From positions 1 through 56,832 of the forward strand of contig CAIOAT010000032.1 in NCBI GenBank assembly GCA_903856085.1: a DNA stretch of 56,832 bases, written 5' to 3'. The stretch comes from Candidatus Omnitrophota bacterium. Lineage in GTDB: Bacteria; Omnitrophota; Omnitrophia; Omnitrophales; Aquincolibacteriaceae. The translations under genes and the position numbers were made by a program. The notes under the pieces are model-generated. The model saw only the letters and a list, made by a program, of their open reading frames with translations. It was not told the DNA's origin and made no database searches. This document shows positions 11,364-44,184 of the stretch, piece by piece. Numbering within the stretch: position 1 is the first letter of the stretch; each line of letters starts with the position of its first letter.

Positions 11364-11625
11364 GGGCGATAAGATAGCAGAAAAGCCTGAAAACTAAAAT
11401 AAAAACTTCGGTCAAGAGACTGCAGACGGCAGATTTCAGCAAAAACTCGAAAAAAAACCGTTTCCACAGTTTAGATCGATGCTCTGAGGTCTGTAGTCTG
11501 TGGTATGATTCAAAAAAGATTCTTGGGGCCGTCCAAACCATCTTTTTGGGGATAAAAATAAAAAGTTTGGGCGGAAACAGCTCCATGCTATAATTTCCCG
11601 CTCAAAAACTATAACGAATGAGATC
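11364..11625. promoter_or_regulatory. Divergent intergenic region with a long inverted repeat
   Basis: Lies between the fabL-like gene and the biosynthetic operon. AGACTGCAGAC (11417-11427) pairs with GTCTGTAGTCT (11489-11499) with one wobble, enclosing A-rich sequence. A TATAAT (11589-11594) precedes the plus-strand operon, with TTTGGG or TTGGGC about 16-17 nt upstream as a poor -35 box. The start of transcription in either direction is inferred. Confidence 0.45.
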
Positions 11626-18085: not shown

Positions 18086-19243
18086 CTACCGCCAATGCGT
18101 CGGACGTTTGAAAGCGGCCATCAGAAAGGCGTCGAAGAGGATCGCGGTAAAAACCAATGCCGCAACCGGATGCAACAGGGCATAGCGCTTCCTTGCTTTG
18201 ACAATCGCATAAGCCTTGGCTGCGGTGGCGAAGATGATGCAGAGAATGGAAAGTATGAGAATCCCGGAAAGGGAGAAAGGCTGAAGCCGTGTAGCTAGCA
18301 CAATGAAAGGGAAGATGGAAAAGAAGAAAACGCTTAGGACGCATTTGAAAATCACCGCAGGCTTTTGATCGAACGCGTGAAGAAAGATCCGTCGCCAGCC
18401 CCGCCAGATCGTGTCAAACGATTCATACATTCGTGTGCCGTAGAGCGCCATGCCGAAGGCGCACATCCCGCGGGCGCCCATCTCTTTTGTTTTTTTCATT
18501 AGAGCGAAGTCTTCGAGAAAGGCTTCCTTGACGCCATCGTGTCCGCCCATCTTCCGGTAATGTTCTGCGCGGAGCAGCAGGTATTGACCGTTTCCAAAGT
18601 AGACCTTGGACTTGGGGTCGTTGATCTTTTTGATGGGGAACCAAAGCCCCATATAGCTCATGGCACAAGGTTGGATGAGGTTTTCCCAAAAGCCTTGGGC
18701 GAGGCAGCGAGGCAGGAGCGTTAGGAGATCGAGCTTTTTTCCCTCCGCGAAGGCCAGAGCGGCGTTGAGGCTTCCGGGTGCATGACGTGTATCCGCATCG
18801 GTGAAAAGAAACCAATCGCCCGCGGCATGTTGAACGCCGAGATGAAGCGCGAAATTCTTGCCCGTCCAACCTTCGGGGGTTTTGGGGGTGTTGAGGTATT
18901 TAAATTTTGAGCTCGATTTTTCCGGGGCATCTTCGAGGTCAATCCGAATGCCGCCCAGATCCTTAAGAATGGCTTCGGTCCTGTCCTCGGAGCAGTTATT
19001 GATCACCAGGATCTCATCACCCTCCCGAAGTTGTAAAAGAAAAGGTCTAACGCAATCCGCGATATTCTTTTCCTCATTTTTAGCGGGAATGAGCACGGAG
19101 ACTTTGCCGCGTCGGCAGGCAGAGTTTTCGAGGTGGAGGGTAGGGGCCTGTTTTAATTCGGAAAGGGAACGCCAGCTGCGGTAAATCCATCCCACCAGGA
19201 TAAAGAGGAGCAGGAATAACATTGTGGTTGCGATGATTTCCAT
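18086..19243 (-). CDS. Family 2 glycosyltransferase, membrane-bound (CrtQ/HpnB-like)
   Basis: About 385 residues. An N-terminal transmembrane helix is followed by a GT-A domain: VSVLIPAKNEEKNI (nucleotide site), EILVINNCSEDRT, the metal-binding FTDADTRHAPGSL, and EDFALMKK with the GTRMYESFD region. At least two C-terminal helices anchor it (about 290-345). The DTRHAPG motif and layout resemble the glycosyltransferases of carotenoid or hopanoid glycolipids (CrtQ, HpnB), so a lipid acceptor is plausible. The plus-strand neighbour is the acyl-ACP operon, converging at the terminator. I chose the ATG at 19243; the TTG at 19261 lies inside the palindromic unit that also supplies AAAGG. Confidence 0.8.
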   Translation of the reverse strand: MEIIATTMLFLLLFILVGWIYRSWRSLSELKQAPTLHLENSACRRGKVSVLIPAKNEEKNIADCVRPFLLQLREGDEILVINNCSEDRTEAILKDLGGIRIDLEDAPEKSSSKFKYLNTPKTPEGWTGKNFALHLGVQHAAGDWFLFTDADTRHAPGSLNAALAFAEGKKLDLLTLLPRCLAQGFWENLIQPCAMSYMGLWFPIKKINDPKSKVYFGNGQYLLLRAEHYRKMGGHDGVKEAFLEDFALMKKTKEMGARGMCAFGMALYGTRMYESFDTIWRGWRRIFLHAFDQKPAVIFKCVLSVFFFSIFPFIVLATRLQPFSLSGILILSILCIIFATAAKAYAIVKARKRYALLHPVAALVFTAILFDAFLMAAFKRPTHWR

Positions 19244-19409
19244 AGTCCCAATACCTTTCAATTTTTACGAAGTAGAAATTGGGGCAGTCCCAATACCAAT
19301 CAATCGAAGCAAACGAAGATTGGGGCTGTCCTGATTACCATCCAGGGAAAGAAAATCAAAATCAGGGCTGTCCCAGCTGCCATCTATGTAACGAAATTTA
19401 AAGTTGGGA
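19244..19409. repeat. Four tandem palindromic units (family A array)
   Basis: Units start at about 19245, 19287, 19328 and 19370 (period 41-42 nt). Each opens with GTCC and closes with GGG(G)C or GGGA. The arms pair within each unit: CCCAAT/ATTGGG twice, CCTGAT/ATCAGG, and CCCAGCT/AGTTGGG. The arm changes are compensated, while ACCATC/ACCAATC-like sequence after the left arm and purine-rich loop sequence are shared. The first unit overlaps the leader of the GT2 gene on the minus strand. There is no constant repeat with variable spacers, so it is not a CRISPR. Confidence 0.8.
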
Positions 19410-19455
19410 TAGAGGCGGCATCATAACAAATGTTCAAAACGGGTCAAGATAAATT

Positions 19456-41070: not shown

Positions 41071-41921
41071 ACCTGACGGACACTCATATTCATCTACATT
41101 TCCCCCAGTACGATGTTGATCGTCCGGAAATAATTCAGAGGGCGATCCATGGCGGTATCCGTCATTTCTTGAATATTGGTACCGATCTTGAGGATTCCAG
41201 AAAAGCCATCGCGATCGCCGAGCAATATCCCGAAGTTTATGCCGCTGTCGGGTACCATCCCCATGAGACAAAACATGCTCATGATTCAGAGCTTGCTGAA
41301 CTCGAAAAACTTCTTTCTCATCCGAAAGTCGTGGCGATCGGGGAGGTGGGGCTGGACTATTTTCACGAGCATTCTCCGCGGGATGTACAACTGAAACTTT
41401 TGAATGTTTTTCTCGGATGGTACGAGAAGCATCAAAAACCGATCATTATCCATTGTCGCGACGCTTATGATGAGCTGCTTGACGTTCTCAAGGACTATGG
41501 CAAGTCCAATTCTCCATTAAAAGAATCAAAGGCTAATTGGACTAGCCCTGGCGTTCTTTCGGTAGAAGAAAATAGATGCCAGGGCAAGACGCCCTATCGC
41601 GGGACTCTCCACTGCTATTCCTCGGATGCCGGAACGATGAAAAAATATCTCGACCTTGGTTTTCATATCGCGTTCGGCGGGGCCCTGACCTATAAAAAAA
41701 ACGACGGGTTGCGTGAGGCCTGCGCGCTGTGCCCGAAGGACCGTTTGCTCCTTGAGACGGATGCGCCTTATCTACCCCCCCAATCGAAGCGGGGTCAGCG
41801 CAACGAGCCTTTGTATATAATTGAAACCGCTGAATGTGCCGCGAAGCTCCACGGCATGAGTCTGGAGGAGATTGCGGAATTGACCACGGCGAATGCCCGG
41901 AAGCTTTTCCGGATGAATTGA
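41067..41921 (+). CDS. tatD: TatD-family metal-dependent hydrolase with repeat-derived insertion
   Basis: A 284-residue TIM-barrel nuclease/deoxyribonuclease. Metal-site motifs are TDTHIHLHFPQYD, GEVGLDYFHEHSP, IIHCRDAYDELLDVL, GTLHCYSSDAGTMKKYLDLGFHIAFGG and LLLETDAPYLPPQSKRGQRNEP. Between DYGK and KTPYRG there are 28 extra residues (from 41503 to 41586). They are encoded by two palindromic family A units, without a frameshift or stop. Removing exactly 84 nt restores DYGKTPYRG, which is how TatD sequences normally read. The insertion lies in a surface loop before the HCxS strand, so the enzyme may stay active. It overlaps metG by 4 nt. Confidence 0.92.
   Translation: MNLTDTHIHLHFPQYDVDRPEIIQRAIHGGIRHFLNIGTDLEDSRKAIAIAEQYPEVYAAVGYHPHETKHAHDSELAELEKLLSHPKVVAIGEVGLDYFHEHSPRDVQLKLLNVFLGWYEKHQKPIIIHCRDAYDELLDVLKDYGKSNSPLKESKANWTSPGVLSVEENRCQGKTPYRGTLHCYSSDAGTMKKYLDLGFHIAFGGALTYKKNDGLREACALCPKDRLLLETDAPYLPPQSKRGQRNEPLYIIETAECAAKLHGMSLEEIAELTTANARKLFRMN
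41503..41585 (+). repeat. Two palindromic units inserted in-frame in tatD
   Basis: Unit 1 (41503-41543) has arms AGTCCAATT/AATTGGACT, unit 2 (41545-41585) has arms GCCCTGGC/GCCAGGGC. Period is 42 nt (14 codons). The hexamer GGCAAG occurs on each side (41499-41504 and 41583-41588) and may be a target duplication. The loops share AGAAAAT-like sequence with the array at 19328. Confidence 0.85.
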
Positions 41922-43758: not shown

Positions 43759-44184
43759 ATGAATATTAAAATTGGTGCATTTGTGAGCGGGTTCATTGGA
43801 ATCGCCGTAATTTTAATGGTAACATTTTGCTTTACGGGCTGTGGAAAAAAACCGAGTAGAGAGTATTACGCAAATGGGAAATTGAAATCAGAGATGTCGT
43901 ATGAGAAAGGTATCCATCATGTATTGTCCAAAGACTATTACGAAAATGGACAATTAGAGTCGGAGATGTCTTTTGATAATGGAAAGCCTGAAGGCGCGGT
44001 GAAGTGGTATTACGAAAACGGACAATTAGAATCGGAAAGCTTTTTTAAGAATGGAAAGCTTGAGGGGTTGTCTAAGAAATATTACAAGAGCGGGAAATTG
44101 CGTTCAGAGGAGTCTTACGCGAACGGAGAATTTAATGTGCTGTCATATAGGGAGTATGACGAAAGCGGTCATTTGAAACCGTAG
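43759..44184 (+). CDS. MORN-repeat lipoprotein, paralogue
   Basis: A 141-residue protein with the same plan as its neighbour: a hydrophobic segment, lipobox FTGC and four or five MORN_2-like units (SKDYYENGQLESEMSFDNGKPEG). The two are clearly duplicates; N-terminal halves are very alike (MNIRTVTL against MNIKIGAF) while the repeat number differs. GGGAGG lies 6-7 nt before the ATG. thiL begins 6 nt after its stop. Confidence 0.8.
   Translation: MNIKIGAFVSGFIGIAVILMVTFCFTGCGKKPSREYYANGKLKSEMSYEKGIHHVLSKDYYENGQLESEMSFDNGKPEGAVKWYYENGQLESESFFKNGKLEGLSKKYYKSGKLRSEESYANGEFNVLSYREYDESGHLKP

Follow-up and report, generated by a model that had tools for sequence, protein, structure and literature searches.

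The hairpin units dispersed through this DNA each form half of a tiny mobile DNA element, which occupies 100 or more places in its own genome and is also found in relatives. The window, the whole stretch that was analyzed, comprises 56,832 nucleotides from a Candidatus Omnitrophota bacterium (contig CAIOAT010000032.1); an earlier note on it had described a family of hairpins with a tandem period near 42 nt. That period is seen, and 42 nt is half of the mobile unit: rather than a single hairpin, the usual unit is a pair of ~84 nt, in which an A-hairpin (~37 nt) is followed by a 3- to 4-nt linker (G), a B-hairpin (~39 nt), and a 3- to 4-nt right end (T′). An element in another genome, G004, reads TTAG|TCCCAATACC...ATTGGGG (A-hairpin), linker CAA, then TCCCGACTACC...AGTCGGGA|TAG (B-hairpin). 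An inner palindrome is frequent in A units, and the B-unit loop is A-rich. We give about even chances to a reading in which this transposase-less palindromic element is mobilized in folded single-stranded form and finds its target through the linker, which serves as its guide.

The four tandem units described previously are present at 19244-19285, 19286-19326, 19327-19368, and 19369-19410 (plus strand; covariance-model matches of 40.5 to 47.6 bits), and they correspond to an inserted four-hairpin array at 19246-19412 with linkers CAG, CTG, and CTG and a right-end TAG at 19410-19412; the TAG at 19243-19245 is its left flank and target. The two units placed at 1645 also hold, as a plus-strand pair at 1646-1727 (units 1646-1683 and 1684-1725, ending in TAG at 1725-1727), as do the two in tatD, a pair at 41505-41588. 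The copies at 1027 and 2182 that had been read as single do exist, but each has a B partner on the minus strand: the A+B pair at 983-1064 runs TAG (1064-1062), A-hairpin (1061-1029), linker GCAA, B-hairpin (1024-987), and TAG (985-983), and that at 2138-2225 runs TAG (2225-2223), A, linker CAA, B (2140-2181), and TAG (2140-2138). The B-hairpin at 987-1024 came from a hairpin scan together with a minus-strand reading, which places it downstream of the A-hairpin at 1029-1061. The third supposedly single copy, at 875, is a plus-strand unit at 874-916 (arms CCTGAC/GTCAGG; 34.2 bits) whose partner, at 833-873, is at best degenerate (14.3 bits). A single unit also lies at 11530-11572 on the plus strand (arms CCAAAC/GTTTGG; 34.5 bits), and the aligned site in the congener G002 is without it.

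The covariance model was built from ten window copies, with the alignment trimmed before modeling, MAFFT alone having misaligned the short-loop copies. It recovers all of the window sites listed in the earlier note, and adds 2140-2181 on the minus strand and the degenerate 833-873; by its scores, 11530-11572 and the tatD pair are family members too. A genome-wide covariance search had been suggested as the way to find further copies, and it found many: the own genome (G000; 2.36 Mb, 95% complete) has matches at no fewer than 107 places at E ≤ 10, with 150 of 1,041 candidates scored, and 53 matches at E ≤ 0.01, the counts being taken from the model search and from individual stretches. Searching the genome for a strict 15-mer pattern is uninformative because the arm letters vary. 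Matches at E ≤ 0.01 occur in 15 of 58 related genomes, including all six genomes of the genus (27 to 125 each), G016, G021, G023, and G025 of the same family, and a few more in other families of the order, the matches being sparse outside the genus.

Other repeats lie in or near these elements. Some copies (L177, L189, L167) have a short perfect palindrome, CCTGCCTGCCGGACAGGCAGG, inserted at their A/B linker, and a stretch resembling it lies near 2014-2035 of the window; it looks like a separate small repeat. In G004, a stretch of ~160 nt that contains long inverted repeats, CCCCCAATGGC...GCCATTGGGGG, lies between an A- and a B-hairpin (L077:6010-6334). That genome also holds a larger repeat (L079, L083, L085, and others), TAG-TACCGCATGACATTCGAATTT...ATGCGGTAC-AA-TACCGTTAACCCTTAG(pair)AATCAAATGGAGAACGGTATTAG, which is likewise built of two hairpins and has younger pairs inserted at TAG in the second loop. 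The sole array that Tandem Repeats Finder reports in the window, at 43936-44085, is a coding-like repeat with a period of 72 (YYENGQLESESSFKNGKPEG-like).

The arms differ between copies yet stay paired, as had been noticed from the letters of the window. Across 126 distinct units and six arm pairs, found partly via the structure model, 97.0% of arm cells are paired versus 80.8% after shuffling, 163 arm cells are changed on both sides versus 53.3 in shuffles (0 of 500), and in slid registers pairing drops to 3 to 65%. The tatD subfamily, found by BLAST alone, provides an ascertainment-free check; 19 of its 26 copies in that set have fully complementary 6-nt arms, and four arm types occur (CCAATT/AATTGG, CCCATT/AATGGG, CCCATG/CATGGG, and CCCATC/GATGGG). 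Folded as single-stranded DNA, the whole tatD pair has a free energy of -18.7 kcal/mol (z -4.6). G-T or T-G pairs make up 17 of 733 paired cells (~2%) and mismatches ~3% of arm cells, and the rarity of G-T pairs suggests that a DNA hairpin fits better than an RNA helix.

Covarying arms, and the mostly intergenic position of the copies in the window, would also be expected of structured RNA elements under selection, such as small RNAs, terminators, or mRNA-stability hairpins. However, there is no Rfam covariance-model match, G-T pairs are rare, and the copies lie on both strands, inside reading frames as well as between genes, and are missing at syntenic sites in congeners. We have set a functional RNA aside on these grounds and consider one extremely improbable.

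The elements are mobile. The array at 19246-19412 is missing at the syntenic G002 site, with CATAG|AGGCGGCATC in the window against CATACGACCGGCATC in G002, and the two are of equal length once the insert is removed. Some copies are old, since unit 1684-1725 has an ortholog in G002 that differs by one C-G to T-G change; unit 1646-1683 was lost from G002 or was never there. Main-type pairs sit at TAG within copies of the tatD type, whose own sequence provides the empty site (L167, L182, L186). G004 has undergone a recent burst of near-identical copies: the 20 stretches taken from it contain 22 matches that tie at ~44 bits, and TAG stands at every free-standing left end listed there but one (GAG). 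Tandem arrays arise by reinsertion beside or inside older copies, being either a pair repeated or a pair nested in the linker of another, and the four-unit architecture of the window recurs elsewhere in G001 (L055), G002 (L056/L141), and G004 (L085). The paired arm changes had been taken to point either to selection on the folded form or to a copying process that requires it; the empty sites, the G004 burst, the nested insertions, and the stems that extend into the target flank give good support to copying. A functional RNA is not supported.

The boundaries of the elements are exact, and the left flank (T), the linker, and the right end are matched to one another. Among 87 collapsed main-type pairs, T equals T′ in 46 (12.6 when shuffled), T and G form Watson-Crick pairs at 184 of 261 positions (131 when shuffled), and G and T′ at 164 (120 when shuffled; P ≤ 0.0001 in each case); in these figures related copies are non-independent even after collapsing, and a few pairs are still represented by their reverse-strand reading as well. 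The effect stays significant without the TAG class, holds when only distinct triples are counted, and reaches significance in the tatD subfamily as well. Matched T/G/T′ states include TAG/CAA/TAG, CGG/CCG/CGG, TGG/TCA/TGG, and CAA/TTG/CAA, together with CAAG/CTAG or CTTG/CAAG, CACG/CGAG/CACG, and CAAA/TTAG/CAAA; some copies have T equal to T′ while G misfits (CATG/CTAG/CATG). Targets are subfamily specific, and at many independent sites a given subfamily tends to keep to a single combination of target and linker (CGG with CCG; TAG with CAA). This speaks for an inherited linker that chooses the site, and against correction of the linker after insertion.

Later correction of this kind would belong to an inert repeat whose compensated arms come from hairpin-templated DNA synthesis (quasi-palindrome correction), the fold being needed neither by a transposase nor by selection. 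Flank and linker would then be corrected jointly, and the few G-T and mismatched intermediates are as this process predicts, but it leaves the dispersal, the exact empty sites, and the young burst unexplained, along with the use of the same target in many independent insertions of one subfamily. The young G004 copies, moreover, appear to match linker and target before there was time for correction, and we think this account quite improbable.

We propose instead that the element, which lands immediately 3′ of the short target T in host DNA, moves as folded single-stranded DNA. An enzyme acting in trans would read the hairpin shape and conserved loop letters rather than the arm letters, so that the arms may drift while pairing holds, and G would base-pair with the cleavage or target site, setting both the landing place and the right-end cut, as guides do in IS200/IS605. 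Because T′ is itself the target sequence, each insertion would make a fresh adjacent target, and head-to-tail arrays with a period of 84 nt (2 × 42) would follow. Paired arms with free letters, conserved loop motifs, and a target-complementary linker are what we would expect as the trace of an enzyme reading folded single-stranded DNA.

Telling against a guide, the identity of T and T′ is equally expected from a 3- to 4-bp target-site duplication, such as a DDE transposase acting in trans on a MITE-like element would leave, with the hairpins incidental or used for host processing. The excess of pairs with T equal to T′ suits such an element, as do the exact insertion at empty sites and the copies in which T′ tracks T even where the linker misfits (the CATG cases). 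Yet terminal inverted repeats shared with an autonomous element, as in DDE MITEs, are not seen, only ~TCC...GGA being common to both ends as an inverted repeat, and the arms differ freely between copies; there is also no reason for such an element to show linker-flank complementarity or a linker-dependent target preference. We regard this explanation as possible, if rather doubtful.

The copy in tatD illustrates insertion into a reading frame. On the plus strand, the target CAAG (41501-41504; the empty G001 site has CAAG there, and G004 has CAAA) is followed by the A-hairpin (41505-41541, arms CCAATT/AATTGG), a central linker or guide CTAG (41542-41545) that is complementary to both CAAG flanks except for one A·A, the B-hairpin (41546-41584, arms CCCTGGC/GCCAGGG), and a right-end copy of CAAG (41585-41588). 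Without 41505-41588 (84 nt, 28 codons), tatD aligns gap-free across the site to all five congeners. The subfamily has ~35 copies in six genomes, of which ~27 share one sense frame in open reading frames of at least 100 amino acids, with a recurring peptide like GKPNSPSKDSKVNWTSPGNLxxEENRCQGK. Proteins hosting that peptide include AddB-like, helicase, phosphofructokinase (PFK), NuoL-like, and histidine-kinase proteins, names that are read from the sequences, the Pfam check of host proteins having covered TatD only. Main-type elements are also found in frame, with a peptide like SPNxNQF...GNWGNPDY.

The elements thus survive in frame in proteins. By eye, the tatD-subfamily consensus has stops in the other two sense frames and in all antisense frames. 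Survival in one frame can therefore result from the weeding out of damaging insertions, with no function implied; genic copies would persist mainly in the one stop-free frame. At one NuoL-like site, YTREYQGK|KNIALLGFFYN, a tatD-type element is found in two genera (L045:1459-1584 in G021 and L160:1501-1590 in G005), and the G021 copy has a main-type pair nested inside it; the shared site may reflect common ancestry, gene transfer, or repeated insertion.

In search of a mobilizing enzyme, we found no match to Pfam Y1_Tnp (PF01797) in G000 (95% complete) or in the burst genome G004 (82% complete); PF01797 matches are present in four congeners, and the assemblies in general are incomplete. A group of Y1 proteins with at least 55% identity to P0002 is encoded in G002, G003, G016, and G021, all of them hairpin bearing, and in none of the compared genomes without hairpin matches. 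This distribution is in keeping with REP-like elements moved by a genus-encoded Y1-family RAYT (TnpA-REP), with one enzyme per subfamily, lost or unassembled in some genomes, and so is the situation in G003, the only one of the four in which a hairpin pair adjoins a Y1 gene (P0003), just upstream of it and alongside another palindrome. The P0002 group is nevertheless absent from the hairpin-bearing G000, G001, G004, G005, and G023, its Y1 gene is flanked by a different palindrome of its own, the hairpin family carries no GTAG tag, and other Y1 genes are common in hairpin-free genomes. With the Y1 genes flanked by other palindromes and none found in G000 and G004, we set a Y1/RAYT enzyme aside as the obvious mobilizer and judge this origin unlikely.

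The palindromes bordering the P0002 group differ between genera (ACCCTGTACACACC..., TGTCAAATCC..., and TTCGACACCGG...; L110, L111, L112, L113), and in G002, G003, and G021 the group adjoins a conserved hairpin-rich stretch, GAGACTTACGGGTCTCGACTCACCTG...GGTTCGTGGCCACC...CACTCGGTCACGAACC. Viral spread was also considered and rejected, since the viral contigs contain no exact match to the core and the phage records give no match by blastn. None of the copies in the stretches read, a non-exhaustive set, is autonomous. Neither a circular junction nor an excision product was observed.

A fuller version of the guided, folded-strand reading can be put forward with considerable reservation: a single DNA guide, lying between the two hairpins, would be used for both ends and for target choice, mobilization would be by an enzyme outside the known Y1/RAYT proteins, and linker-target subfamilies would have diversified naturally, some persisting as harmlessly translated inserts in host proteins. 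Ever since the Rickettsia palindromic elements (RPE) were discovered, it has been an open question how protein-coding palindromes, and other hairpin repeats that lack a transposase, manage to spread. Here exact insertion sites number in the dozens, one genome has had a recent burst, sister species show empty sites, and linker-target pairs form a natural series; taken together, these yield a specific, testable prediction, that the target is chosen by linker base pairing. If this is true, DNA-guided target choice, engineered in IS608, extends to elements of only 84 nt, and a selfish DNA family survives in frame in core enzymes throughout a genus that belongs to an uncultured phylum.

In the open-access literature, to which our search was directed, we found no earlier description of this hairpin family, and several known systems invite comparison. 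The attC sites of integrons vary in their stem letters and keep their pairing, since it is the folded strand that is recognized; the Omnitrophota element is alike in its varying but paired stems, and is set apart by description in being without an R-box consensus and without cassette genes. RPE and their Wolbachia equivalents (Ogata et al. 2000, 2005; reviewed in PMC2229807) are 105 to 146 bp long with long terminal stems, and their target-site duplication is marked as unknown (PMC2229807). Both families are small mobile palindromes, intergenic and in frame in many unrelated conserved proteins, and RPE too are without a known transposase; in-frame insertion into several unrelated conserved proteins is a feature that we observe here. 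Unlike RPE, and comparing by description, the Omnitrophota element is a pair of short hairpins (2 × 42 nt) with exact ends, linker-target complementarity, and tandem arrays, in another phylum.

IS608 recognizes TTAC through a tetranucleotide guide beside each hairpin, which pairs with the cleavage and target sites, and a change of guide retargets insertion (PMC5934647); a similar rule has been shown for one REP system (PMC8266576). Like IS200/IS605 elements (IS608, ISDra2) and PATEs (PMC5934647, PMC3119063), the Omnitrophota element has a subterminal hairpin at each end (A and B), inserts exactly 3′ of a short fixed target whose letters change with those of a complementary guide, and would need no extra duplication; like PATEs, it is without a transposase gene. 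Unlike IS200/IS605, it has one central linker in place of two guides, identical left and right flanks, a length of ~84 nt, and pure tandem arrays, and two of its six host genomes, G000 and G004 (both incomplete assemblies), have no Y1 gene, the HUH transposase expected in a PATE host. The guides of IS608 lie 5′ of each hairpin, whereas the single linker between the Omnitrophota hairpins would serve both ends. With the linker 5′ of hairpin B and T′ 3′ of it, the right end has the IS608 geometry; the left does not, hairpin A lying between target and linker.

Like REP/BIME sequences and their RAYT (TnpA-REP; PMC8266576, PMC3733652), the family comprises hundreds of small palindromes, often in pairs or tandem arrays, with the hairpin probably recognized as a folded single strand. 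It differs from them in its head-to-tail rather than inverted arrangement, long loops of 20 to 25 nt, freely varying arms, and in-frame genic copies, and most genomes lack a flanking RAYT. The REP tag GTAG/CGTC is not found 5′ of the palindrome, the flanks being TAG, CGG, CAG, TGG, or CAAG according to subfamily; because this tag and a Y1 gene in every host are lacking, we file the element in neither the PATE nor the REP family. By analogy, it appears to act like a PATE or a REP that is guided as IS608 is, and to behave towards proteins like an RPE.
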